Source of the DNA: Limisphaerales bacterium
GTDB taxonomy: Bacteria; Verrucomicrobiota; Verrucomicrobiia; Limisphaerales; JAKEEH01
DNA: 54,175 bases
Direction: 5' to 3'
Assembly: GCA_022616725.1 (NCBI GenBank)
Contig: JAKEEH010000331.1
Span: forward strand, 1-54,175
The first letter of the stretch is position 1; every line of letters starts with the position of its first letter. Below the pieces are notes generated by a model that was given only the letters and a program-made list of their open reading frames with translations, had not been told where the DNA came from and did not search any database. Below are positions 7,248 to 47,839 of this stretch, one piece after another. The translations under genes were made by a program, and so were the position numbers.

Positions 7248-8042
7248 TCAAGGCTGCACGGGCACGAGCCGGTCCCCCAAAATCGCCACTTTCAACGTGA
7301 ACTCTGCCGCTTGGAGCAACGGCGACATGTAATCGTCGCGGCTGTTGCCGGCCGCCCAGGGTGAGAAGGCCGGGAGGACCAGGATATCGTTGAATCGTTG
7401 AATCGTTGAACCGTTGAACCGTCGGCTTGAGCGTCCCACCAGAAAGCAAGGGTATTTCTGCCAGGTGGCCGCGCCGTCATCGAGGGTGACGCAGGGGTGT
7501 TCGTGCCCGATAACCAACCAGTCGTGGCCGGGGATGGCGTCTTGTGACGCAATTACGGATTTTTCGTCGCCGTGCAGGAACAGGCAGCGCTCTTCCGAAA
7601 AATGGTCGGCCACGGTGATCCTGGCGACCTCCCCGGAGAAGACCGTCTGGAGGTCGCGATCGTGATTGCCGGCGACCAGGATGACTTTCGTTTGGCTCGC
7701 AAGCTCATTCAGCAGGCCCTGGAACGCATCGCGCAAAGGCGGAACGGGCAACGCGCGATGGACCACGTCACCAACCAGCACGATCTGATTCGGACAATAA
7801 TCCCTTTGCAGAGCCGCCAGGCGCGCGGTGGTGTTGTCCGGCACGTTGATGGGCAACAATTGCCCACCGCAGCGATGCGCCCAGGCATAGCCGATGTGCA
7901 GGTCGGCGACGGCTAACGTTCTGGACCTTTCGAGCCAGACGGCGCGGCGAGCGTCCAGCCAGAGGCCGGGAGCGACTTCCAATCGGGCTTGGCCGTTGAA
8001 TCGTTGAATCGTTGAATCGTTGAATTGTTGGGCTGTCACCAT
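7248..8042 (-). CDS. Metallophosphoesterase (PdeM-like) carrying two in-frame octanucleotide-repeat insertions
   Basis: Calcineurin-like motifs are ADLHIGYAW (D47, H49), VLVGDVVH (D92), VAGNHDRD (N126, H127), LFLHGDE and VIGHEHP. This order matches the PdeM/YfcE-like group linked to DNA-repair nucleases. ATG 8042 overlaps the stop of the upstream dihydroorotate-dehydrogenase-like gene (ATGGTGA), so translation is coupled. Residues 7-16 and a second stretch near 210 read FNDSTIQRFNG and FNGSTIQRFND. Both are encoded by tandem 8-bp repeats (7995-8030 and 7386-7422) that interrupt otherwise normal sequence without breaking the frame. Catalytic residues are intact. Substrate unknown. Confidence 0.82.
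   Translation of the reverse strand: MVTAQQFNDSTIQRFNGQARLEVAPGLWLDARRAVWLERSRTLAVADLHIGYAWAHRCGGQLLPINVPDNTTARLAALQRDYCPNQIVLVGDVVHRALPVPPLRDAFQGLLNELASQTKVILVAGNHDRDLQTVFSGEVARITVADHFSEERCLFLHGDEKSVIASQDAIPGHDWLVIGHEHPCVTLDDGAATWQKYPCFLVGRSSRRFNGSTIQRFNDILVLPAFSPWAAGNSRDDYMSPLLQAAEFTLKVAILGDRLVPVQP
7386..7422. repeat. Octanucleotide tandem repeat (TTGAATCG type)
   Basis: About four units of TTGAATCG/TTGAACCG lie inside the metallophosphoesterase gene. Three units make 24 bp, so the reverse strand reads as the octapeptide FNDSTIQR with no stop. Confidence 0.85.
7995..8030. repeat. Octanucleotide tandem repeat (TTGAATCG type)
   Basis: Three exact TTGAATCG units and one TTGAATTG unit at the 5' end of the metallophosphoesterase gene encode residues 6-16 of that protein. 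Confidence 0.85.
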
Positions 8043-12454: not shown

Positions 12455-13344
12455 GGCGAGTGCTGTCCGGAAATTGTTCGGTTTTTTCCGGTTTTCGAGT
12501 GAACACAAAACTGTACGACTGGACGGCAAGTCGTCGTAAGTGCTTGGTACAGCGTGATCGAAACTGGACGATTTCGTGAGATCGTACAGTTTTGTACAGT
12601 TTTCGAATCCGGGAAAAATGGCATCCCCACCCCCCACTTCTGTAGCAGTTTTGGATCACTTTTGTATCAGGTTTCATGGCGCCCCTTCGATTTGAAAATG
12701 GGACGATGTGGAAACTTGTCGTCGTAAGTTGTTGCGGCGCAACGATCCAGGTCTGCAGCGTGTTCGAATTCGTCCCGTTTTGTCCCATTTTGGTTCCACC
12801 CCGCCGCCCGCAAATTCGCCTTTTCGGGTGGGAATGGATGGATTTTGGATGGGTTTTCCCGAAAAAATTGAAGCGCCAGCCAGCCGGCGGGACGCCGGCC
12901 GGGGCGACCGAGACGGTCGCGCTCCCCCATGTTTGGAATCGGCGGTCGGTCTTTGTCCATAGGCCCCTGGCATTTTCGGTCAATTCCGGTCAGTTTTGGT
13001 CAGTTTTCCAGCGCGGAGTTAAGTGGTTAACCCAGTTAAAACAGTTAAATTGGTCCCTTTTCATACTACGCCTATTATACCACGGGTTTTGGGGAGTTCG
13101 GGGGCAGGGCCAATTCTTAACATGCCTATGCGTGCCTATCAGTGCCTATGCGTGCCAGTAAGTGCCAAAAAAGTTAGGAATTCCAGTTGACAAGGTTTGA
13201 AAAGCCTCAGAGTTGATGTGAAATGGATAGAGCGGGAGAATGGAAGGCGGTTGCAGGGGGACCAAATCAGAGGGGCTTGGTCCGGGGTCGGTGGTTACAA
13301 CAGAAAAAGCGCGAAATAGTTCGATTAAGCTTGACATTTGCAAA
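12455..13344. repeat. 0.9-kb non-coding region packed with 10-bp-period direct repeats
   Basis: No convincing gene is present. Short direct repeats of unrelated sequence all have a period of 10 bp: GTACAGTTTT twice (12584-12603), GTCCCRTTTT twice (12772-12791), GGTCAATTCC then GGTCAGTTTT twice (12978-13007), and TGCCTATGCG-type units five times (13123-13170). The string GTCGTCGTAAGT occurs near 12530 and near 12719. Open frames across the region have low-complexity translations and no recognisable domain, so I do not call them genes. Confidence 0.65.
13123..13170. repeat. Five tandem 10-bp units (TGCCTATGCG type)
   Basis: The units are TGCCTATGCG, TGCCTATCAG, TGCCTATGCG, TGCCAGTAAG and TGCCAAAA. 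The array lies 175 bp before the EcsC start and is followed by TTGACA at 13187-13192, which has no good -10 partner. Confidence 0.8.
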
Positions 13345-22828: not shown

Positions 22829-22892
22829 GTGAATCGTTGAATTGATTGAGCGATTTAACTGCCGAACGCCGTTGACGTTTTAGCGATTTAAC
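22829..22892. repeat. Degenerate octanucleotide repeat and AGCGATTTAAC pair
   Basis: GTGAATCGTTGAATTGATTG (22829-22848) is a decayed piece of the TTGAATCG repeat. AGCGATTTAAC occurs at about 22848-22858 and again at about 22882-22892. The repeat sits in the divergent GT2/methyltransferase promoter gap. Confidence 0.55.
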
Positions 22893-33822: not shown

Positions 33823-33868
33823 ATCGTTGAATCAGTCAAGAGTGATTGGTTGAAGGGTTGAATTTAAT
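33823..33868. repeat. Degenerate octanucleotide repeat locus
   Basis: ATCGTTGAATCAGTCAAGAG followed by GGTTGAAGGGTTGAA is a decayed version of the TTGAATCG/TTGAAGGG array found elsewhere in the window. It ends about 60 bp before the Cys-rich hypothetical gene. Confidence 0.5.
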
Positions 33869-46275: not shown

Positions 46276-47765
46276 TTAACGGAACGAACGGTGCGTTCTT
46301 TCAGAAAACTTTGCTCTTTCCGTGGTATTTGACTTTTGTTGTGTGCTGCTTGCGAGTGGCAGAATCCATTTGGAGGGTAGAAGCGTGCGTTTTTCCGCAG
46401 CCAAATTCACCTGCGGATCGACCAGGAATCGCGGCGGGCGGCCATTCAACGAGCTCGTGACCGTCGCCCTGACTTCCAATGGATAGCCCAGACTTCGCCG
46501 TTTGGCCTGGTCGCGGGCGATGTGATGGGCCATCTGCAGGATCATGTCCGGGCGGCTTGCCATCTTGGACGCCTGGCGGGGCGTCAGGTAATGGCGTGGG
46601 CTGATTTCCCAGGTGCTGCCGCGGCGCGGGTCGGTAATAGAGAAACGGGCCTGCGAGTTTTGTCGCGCAATTTCATGTGCCACGAGAAACGGTGGCCCTC
46701 TTCGGTCCAATGAACGCTGCCAGGATACAGCAAGTGGCGGAGCGGCACGAGAAGTTGGATCGCCAGGTAGGCGCTGATAAGGCTGATGGCGACACGACGT
46801 TGCAGGATTGAAGGGTTGAAGGGTTGAAGGGTTGAATCGTTGAACCGTTGAACCGTTGAGCTGTTGAACCGGGCCTTGACCTTTGCCCAAAGGAGGCGCG
46901 GCCAGTCGGGCCGTAAATAGAGGGTTGTCGCCGCGATCATCAGCCATGGAAAGATCCCGATGCTGAACAGGATCGCATTGAGCAAGTGAAATGTCACAGC
47001 CCACACGAATGCCAGGACGCGGGTTCGCTTCCAGAGTAATAATGGGACAATCGCAAGGTCGAAGATTAGCCCGCCATAGTTGAAAAGCTGTACCCCCCAC
47101 TCGTTGCCGACGAACAGTCCCAGCACGGGAGTCTGGGCGTAAGGCGCAAGCCAGGAGCGAAAGGGTTCGCCGCGCAGCCAATCCCCGTTCAATTTAGCGA
47201 TGCCGGCATAAAAATAGACGATCGATAACTGCGCCAGCAACAGCGCCAAGACCCAGCGCGGCGCGGTCGAAGAATTCATCTGCTTAGCCCTCCACGCGTC
47301 CAACGAGCCGGCACGGTGCGCTGGGATAACGACCATCAGCAGGCAAAGCAGCGATACTAGGTAGAAGTGGTTCAGGTAATACGCCTGATCGAGCAGAAAA
47401 GCATAAGTGAAGGTGACAAAAAGCAGCGTCGCGCTTAAACGATACCAAAAGCCGAGCAGGACGCCCAGCGCCGCCGCGCCTAAAACCGCGAAATGAACGT
47501 ACATTCCAATGCCGGGCCACGGCTTAACCCAATCGAAACCGTAATACGTGAAGTGAAACTTTGGTTTGACGTAGTATTCTCCGATGAAATCCATCCCCAA
47601 ATAACGGCCCGCCTCGACGAGCATCGTCAAACCAAACAGGACGCGAAATACGACCAGTGATGCGATGTCCACCGGAACAAATGGCCATTGCCAGGCGTCG
47701 AGTCGGCGCGGGAGATGCGCGACTGCAACGGTCTCCGGAGGAGGCAATTGAACACCCGTTGCCAT
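46276..47765 (-). pseudogene. HTTM-domain (vitamin K-dependent carboxylase-like) membrane protein, broken by -1 frameshift
   Basis: From ATG 47765 the protein has several transmembrane helices and HTTM features (LVVFRVLFGLTMLVEAGRYL, YYLNHFYLVSLLCLLMVVIPA, IVYFYAGIAKLNGDWLRGEP, FNYGGLIFDLAIVPLLLW). The first frame reads to 46584, but after FSWHMKLRDK its sequence is meaningless. The family C-terminus (ITDPRRGSTWEISPRHYLTP, MASRPDMILQMAHHIA, SLNGRPPRFLVDP, LPSKWILPL) continues in the -1 frame to a stop at 46276. The break is at the T run 46658-46661 (AAAA in the gene); adding one base gives exactly 497 codons. An octanucleotide-repeat insertion (FNSSTVQRFNDSTLQPFN) lies at 46806-46871. Confidence 0.85.
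46806..46871. repeat. Octanucleotide tandem repeat, largest array (TTGAAGGG and TTGAACCG variants)
   Basis: About eight units of the 8-bp repeat in two variants are inserted in frame inside the HTTM gene, in a cytoplasmic or loop position between helices. It encodes ten or more residues of the FNDSTIQR type. Confidence 0.85.
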
Positions 47766-47839
47766 AGGCGACAATGATGTTCCGAGTGTATCTCCGGAAG
47801 GCGATTCCAGGCATGGGTTAACAACCCACCGGACAGTGT

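Follow-up and report, generated by a model that had tools for sequence, protein, structure and literature searches.

Dispersed octanucleotide arrays in a Limisphaerales genome and their in-frame passage through enzyme genes

Introduction

How can a tandem repeat with a unit of eight bases come to lie twice, in frame, within a single enzyme gene? The question is raised by a metallophosphoesterase gene of a Limisphaerales bacterium that is found in a contig of 54,175 nt (the window, i.e. the whole stretch of DNA analyzed), part of a 6.07 Mb draft genome that is 86% complete in 583 contigs. A first-pass annotation of the window proposed one octamer at five loci and an active process of expansion or copying. 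The arrays probably represent a dispersed short-tandem-repeat family, (GTTGAANN)n, whose coding-compatible insertions have been filtered by selection. The evidence for this reading and for its competitors is set out below.

The repeat unit and the arrays of the window

The octamer is best written GTTGAANN, in which the first six bases are fixed (the core GTTGAA) and the last two are free. The free dinucleotide occurs as TC, CC, GG, GC, AG, TG and others, TC being the commonest in the window's genome and AG and GC in G236, another genome that carries the repeat. Matches to TTGAATCGTTGAATCG with at most 2 mismatches number 10 in the window against 0.05 expected, and at least 10 were reached in 0 of 100 shuffles.

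The good arrays of the window are 32-72 bp in length and of a single orientation. Array 1 (7386-7422, plus strand) consists of two GTTGAATC units, two GTTGAACC units and a part unit, and array 2 (7994-8030, plus strand) of three GTTGAATC units and GTTGAATT; both are detected as TTGAATCG arrays of ~4.6 copies and, delimited more narrowly, span 7389-7420 and 7995-8026. Array 3 (46799-46870, plus strand) has nine units in 72 bp, of the GTTGAAGG, GTTGAATC and GTTGAACC variants. Of the five loci first proposed, those at 7386, 7995 and 46806 stand, and those at 22829 and 33823 prove to be degenerate, with one to three imperfect units left, and neither reaches a three-unit threshold. The former remnant (22829-22851, plus strand) has two imperfect units with 2 mismatches in 16 and is placed between a glycosyltransferase gene on the minus strand and a methyltransferase gene on the plus strand; the latter (33823-33866, plus strand) has one TTGAATC unit followed ~20 bases further by a GTTGAAGG pair, and adjoins a GCGGAGAC-type repeat. 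The loci also do not all share one unit, that at 46806 being composed mainly of GTTGAAGG and GTTGAACC rather than TTGAATCG. The first-pass annotation had in addition called the unit stop-free in its phase and given its product as FNDSTIQR; the peptide is correct but the strand is not, since the orientation written there reads TGA in every third unit and it is the reverse complement that stays open. Elsewhere in the window, at 12584-13166, weak tandem repeats of period 10-11 are clustered.

Two inserts in a PdeM-like metallophosphoesterase

Arrays 1 and 2 are both antisense to a PdeM-like metallophosphoesterase gene (7248-8042, minus strand; start taken from our own gene finder), whose product matches PF00149 (E 6e-9) and scores 101 bits against the PdeM model TIGR04123, under the cut-off of 150. 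Both inserts are in frame. The first (residues 6-16) is QQFNDSTIQRFNG, encoded by array 2 immediately after the start codon so as to give a longer N-terminus, and the second (residues 208-218) is RRFNGSTIQRFND, encoded by array 1 and located between GRSS and ILVLPAFS near the C-terminus. The motifs ADxH, GD, GNHD, H and GHxHP are invariant in the alignment and are flanked by the inserts, in agreement with the early description of two inserts around an intact active site.

A search of 58 genomes gave a phosphoesterase match in 8, the window's own genome included. The C-terminal insert is missing in the three of the seven other homologues that reach this point (L203, L204 and L207), the other four stopping earlier, and the N-terminal insert, following as it does the start codon, is poorly comparable with the homologues. 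Placement on structure, which had been suggested for these inserts, failed for PdeM, whose model is too weak (mean pLDDT 66.9), and succeeded for NuoN as described below.

Arrays across the genome and the rules of their passage through genes

The spread through genes that was surmised from the window is borne out on the scale of the genome: a 16-base, two-unit word with at most one mismatch gave 124 + 86 matches, 210 together, against none for the reversed control, and three exact cores gave 70 + 34 matches. A scan of the window and 40 contig stretches (490,756 bases) for at least three units yielded 65 arrays, each a run of 24-104 bp whose tandem octamers all point the same way. Tandem arrays of at least 2.9 copies in the scanned stretches show a peak at period 8 (67 of 103 rows) that is nearly all of the GTTGAANN family. 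Head-to-tail octamers at many loci of one genome match the dispersed short-tandem-repeat kind of element, of which the heptamers (STRR/SSR) are the example. The 129 flanks of the 65 arrays, searched for a larger carrier element, have in common only further repeat units, apart from a few matches to dispersed repeats of other kinds. Two of the latter adjoin arrays of this genome at L044/L217 and L215/L219: one is a palindrome rich in GC (GGGAGCGCGACCGTCTCGGTCGCCCCGACC), the other a MITE-like stretch that surrounds GAGACTAGTCTC.

Of the 65 arrays, 28 lie in 21 genes predicted with a home-made codon-usage gene finder, 33 are intergenic and 4 are at contig edges. The in-gene arrays of this one assembly are all in frame and all antisense to the gene (28/28), an orientation that is partly built in because the gene finder is unable to cross a clean sense array; no open frame can do so, because three units in the GTTGAA orientation hold TGA in every frame. 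The coding strand of the in-gene arrays, NNTTCAAC, is free of stops in all three frames for every NN, which upholds the early argument that an in-frame insertion need not destroy a gene. As 8 is coprime to 3, all three frames encode one cyclic octapeptide, F-N-x-S-T-x-Q-x, and the 28 in-gene translations fit it with point changes.

Array density is 0.068/kb in genes versus 0.408/kb between genes (ratio ~1/6), a bias against coding sequence within stretches that were picked for holding matches, so that the densities are not those of the whole genome. The ratio may be that of random insertion filtered by the antisense requirement (1/2) and by frame-keeping (1/3), a rough fit and perhaps a lucky one. 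Purifying selection would accordingly act as a sorting step after arrays arise: those with the GTTGAA strand in the sense of a gene would persist only in intergenic DNA or where a gene ends, and those in the opposite orientation could stay within a gene as a loop peptide if their net length is divisible by three. Where co-directional genes of the window's genome enclose an intergenic array, it is antisense in 16 cases versus sense in 3. Two further trends fall short of significance, i.e. the rarity in genes of GTTAAA units, which can give TAA (8/140 vs 17/155, p 0.14), and the codon phase of the in-gene arrays (15, 7 and 6, p 0.07).

In-gene arrays most often have four units (14/28), and 3-5 units in 23/28. 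It might be supposed that gain or loss of units switches reading frames, i.e. that the in-gene arrays serve phase variation, given that 8 is no multiple of 3 and that unit numbers vary at intergenic sites of relatives. This is very unlikely in view of the small unit numbers and of the frame kept by every in-gene array of the assembly, and the genes concerned are complex I subunits, DNA polymerase III alpha and IspG, not mainly surface antigens. Under the reading of filtered insertions, the inserts would most likely be neutral peptides with no function of their own. In effect, one short DNA sequence has been inserted and retained in numerous loops of essential enzymes, a natural experiment whose rules are visible: a stop-free strand, a length in threes and a loop site.

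Inserts in NuoN and other proteins

The genes with arrays include those for NuoN, NuoM, IspG, DnaE (DNA polymerase III alpha), an exosortase, a glycosyltransferase, a sugar epimerase, a sulfatase, DUF7133 proteins and others. The complex I subunit gene nuoN has four insertion loci, and a homologue search gave matches in all 58 genomes searched. In the 29 best homologues, one from each of 29 further families of the order and 52-64% identical (weaker ones were left unaligned), the octamer peptide is present at none of the four loci, and nearly all have a short loop there. Two solved homologues likewise show a gap or a short loop at these positions, and in an AlphaFold model of NuoN (27 sequences, mean pLDDT 85.6) the inserts are in loops between helices, where confidence falls.

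These comparisons bear on the alternative that the inserts are ancient conserved protein loops of incidentally repetitive sequence, an outcome that the first-pass annotation had named as its own refutation. Nothing beyond the loop position speaks for such loops; they are refuted for nuoN by the 29 homologues and opposed by the PdeM C-terminal insert, absent from each homologue reaching it, and the octamer arrays are found between genes as well. This origin has virtually no chance of being correct. Judged by sequence comparison, the nuoN arrays and the phosphoesterase C-terminal insert are evidently lineage-specific insertions and not old loops.

The array of a WbpP-like epimerase amounts to a net gain of about six residues, that of IspG is between two aligned parts of a solved-structure alignment, and that of DnaE is outside the aligned part of solved structures. 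Array 3 of the window is antisense to an HTTM / vitamin K-dependent gamma-carboxylase (VKGC)-like gene (46584-47672, minus strand; PF05090, E 5.9e-88, and PF22777; phmmer matches to human VKGC structures), where it keeps the frame and separates the HTTM part from the lumenal part. As a case of insertion this array was rejected, for the alignment shows none and human VKGC has its own longer loop at this point. The VKGC-like gene extends over two frames (46276-47774), with positions 3-50 of the lumenal domain in one and 48-150 in the other; the frameshift is near 46584-46700, away from array 3, and could be real or an assembly error.

Position and orientation of arrays in other genomes

The 35 arrays of G236 are distributed as 0 in genes, 22 intergenic and 13 at contig edges. 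The corresponding numbers (in genes/intergenic/contig edges) are 2/17/4 in G034, 6/18/3 in G139, 0/10/3 in G254, 0/16/0 in G386, 2/4/0 in G436, 1/6/0 in G495 and 2/3/4 in G404. In-gene arrays are antisense in all of these genomes except G139, where 4/6 are antisense and 2/6 are sense arms. Several contigs of G236 (L051-L061) start or end within arrays, and its true array count is thus higher because the arrays break its assembly. Such contig ends, together with the fragmented and incomplete state of the window's draft genome, are what could be cited for an assembly or binning artefact. That possibility is negligible: the in-gene arrays keep frame through identifiable domains, and separate assemblies of several species have the same element at the same place.

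Intergenic arrays are strongly placed with respect to gene ends. In G236, G034 and G139 together, 28 of the 35 sense arrays downstream of a gene are within 25 bp of its stop codon, and the stop codon is inside the array in 16 of these 35; only 3 of the 31 arrays facing a gene end in antisense lie within 25 bp. G386, which belongs to another class, has 6/7 sense arrays 6-19 bp after a stop and 7/9 antisense arrays 7-26 bp upstream of a start, and its inverted pairs bracket the gap of co-directional genes, one arm after the stop and one before the next start. There are 20 inverted pairs in G386, G236, G139 and G034, and when folded they are more stable than their own shuffles in 19 of 19 cases (z -3.1 to -11.8).

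This placement suggests that the arrays might be functional intergenic elements, with sense (GTTGAANN)n after stops and (NNTTCAAC)n before starts forming hairpins in DNA or RNA for termination, mRNA processing or coupling, and with the in-gene arrays as spill-over. The positions near stops, the G386 arms and the stability of the folded pairs argue for this possibility, which is nevertheless rather unlikely: no inverted pair stands out among the 65 arrays of the window's genome, the inverted-pair spacers are mostly unrelated (3 homologous pairs among the 20 spacers of four genomes), no Rfam family was matched at 7 array loci, and closeness to gene ends would equally follow if arrays were tolerated only in short gaps between genes. 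The reading of coding-compatible insertions filtered by selection remains the preferred one, although the non-random intergenic placement, both stop-hugging and inverted pairs, counts against it, and a view of the arrays as pure junk must invoke selection.

Two known kinds of mobile element were considered and rejected. A MITE is not indicated, as the inverted-pair spacers lack a common interior. The Y1/RAYT transposase PF01797 was rejected as the mover on a count in 20 genomes, in which G179 and G236, the richest in arrays, have 1 match each and poor genomes have 0-11 (G117 10, G248 11). A spacer motif, GACGCARTGACY, is common to genomes of the G236 group and G386 (L054, L065, L263, L274, L369 and L372) and is roughly octamer-phased with the arrays; it is absent from the scanned stretches of the window's genome. 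At L066 8600-8640 and L065 18440-18480 of G236, both intergenic, a second octamer-type repeat, ACGGACCA / ACGGACAA, follows GTTGAANN arrays.

Turnover and distribution

Unit numbers were compared in genera g82 and g15, both outside the window's own family, of which the genomes searched include no other member. One intergenic site has ~2 units in G298, 3 in G295 and 6 in G236; at a second the array of G295 is about four units longer than that of G236; and a g15 array differs by one unit between G139 and G099/G120. G236-group sites that aligned well are occupied in the relatives too. A clean empty DNA site was found neither in G236 versus G295, G297 and G298 nor in G139 versus G014, G069, G099 and G120, these comparisons giving unit-number changes and replaced loops or gaps instead. 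Of the expansion or copying first proposed, expansion is thereby supported indirectly, by unit-number differences in another genus, and copying to a new locus was not seen. An array would lengthen or shorten at its site in 8-bp steps, presumably by replication slippage, and new arrays would arise at dispersed sites, either from short seeds that expand or through ectopic copying; the two-unit site of G298 illustrates what such a seed might be.

The distribution is patchy. Three exact cores occur in 35/293 genomes of the order (reversed control 2/293) and, over the phylum, in 10/239 other genomes (11/240 with the window's own). Phylum counts are 171 + 126 in G386, 147 + 112 in G495 and 99 + 90 in G436, to be read against a reversed control that also matched in G436, G495, G325 and G537 at no more than 13 per genome. 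Within genus g7, G179 has 293 matches, G063 17, G006 2, and G094, G154 and G256 none; G236 has 248, and the other sampled members of its genus have none by three exact cores. The same core with a free dinucleotide occurs in distant classes of the phylum, and in a five-unit scan of one genome per species arrays are found in several other phyla too among the matches listed. The patchy high copy number makes the spread of short arrays testable by comparison of rich and poor species of one genus.

That slippage alone fails to explain one core in distant classes also counts against the preferred reading, as do the arrival of an array at a new locus not having been caught, the antisense excess between co-directional genes of the window's genome, and the lack of a significant shortage of GTTAAA units in genes. 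It is this shared core, with its free dinucleotide and its patchy abundance within single genera, that would favor a dedicated enzyme, i.e. a template-bearing or self-templating machine that would extend breaks or the ends of genes by GTTGAANN units and thereby disperse them. Such an enzyme is quite unlikely, as the one candidate examined, PF01797, does not follow the repeats, no other was found, and slippage together with inheritance could give the pattern too. A wider conjecture, itself unlikely, is that of a phylum-wide mobile GTTGAANN repeat, written by a dedicated copying machine, whose core is kept for its stop-free reverse complement and which passes through genes and donates loop peptides to essential proteins.

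Relation to known repeats

The closest parallel to the octamer family is with the heptamers GGGAATC / GGGGA(C/T)T of Xanthomonas and Nostoc, whose anatomy and preference for four units have been tied to G-quadruplexes, as given in the part of the heptamer report considered here (PMC4692102). Both kinds have a unit indivisible by three and form dispersed arrays that are low in copy number, differ in unit number at shared sites and occur singly or as inverted pairs beside genes of random function, with a preference for sense placement near stop codons and antisense placement before ORFs (PMC4692102, same part). Unlike the heptamers so described, the present repeat has a unit of 8 with the core GTTGAA and a free dinucleotide and is from another phylum, and where the heptamers are under-represented in ORFs the window's genome has many in-frame in-gene arrays (PMC4692102). 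By reading of the sequence, GGG recurs every 8 bp in GTTGAAGG arrays and not in GTTGAATC, GTTGAAAG, GTTGAAGC or GTTGAACC arrays. Among the octamers GGG runs are thus confined to the form with NN=GG, and the commonest forms are without them. As the heptamer anatomy recurs here with units mostly lacking G-runs, quadruplexes are unlikely to be its general reason.

Other small repeats share single features with the octamers, according to the sections of each report drawn on here. Rickettsia palindromic elements are likewise short and non-autonomous, lie in frame in unrelated genes and add a peptide, but are palindromes of ~150 bp, whereas the arrays of the window's genome are 24-104 bp, non-palindromic and of one orientation (PMC10969869). 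REP/GTAG palindromes, known in Verrucomicrobia from Opitutus terrae (O. terrae), resemble the octamers in lying close behind coding regions, forming inverted dimers and at times supplying the stop of the flanking ORF; the octamers differ from REP as outlined there in having neither a terminal GTAG or CGTC tag nor a 20-40 bp palindrome, and no link to PF01797 copy number (PMC3733652). The enterobacterial RU-1/2/3 are also small repeats read as parts of proteins, but are MITE-like units of 103-168 bp and not tandem octamers (PMC2759123). The octamer family was not recognized in the open-access literature, which is weak evidence of absence, and the main text of a tree-of-life survey of short tandem repeats is without the terms octanucleotide, octamer or verrucomicrob (PMC12699852).

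Sense arms within genes of genus g15

The sense arms of G139 show how an array in the unfavorable orientation can lie within a gene. An FMN oxidoreductase of genus g15 has an inverted array pair within one loop, the sense arm of which reads GTTGAATC GTTGAACC GTTCCACC GTTGAACC; the third unit, in which TGA would fall in frame, has lost the TGA. This arrangement is found in three species (G099 and G069 besides G139). By reading of the sequence, the third unit of the sense arm in a PheRS-beta-like gene of the same genome is similarly changed from GTTGAA to GTTCAA. These losses of the in-frame TGA speak for the selective filter and suggest that the g15 in-gene arrays are translated; the loop, whose repeats vary, accepts more than one kind. 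In the FMN oxidoreductase loop G014 has a seven-base repeat (AAGTCCG, ~four copies) and G120 another palindrome (L351, L352). In the G120 gene (L352) a conserved stretch is replaced by the peptide NPTNEPETHGRDARATT, which looks like the product of another dispersed coding repeat, and the gene has an internal stop.
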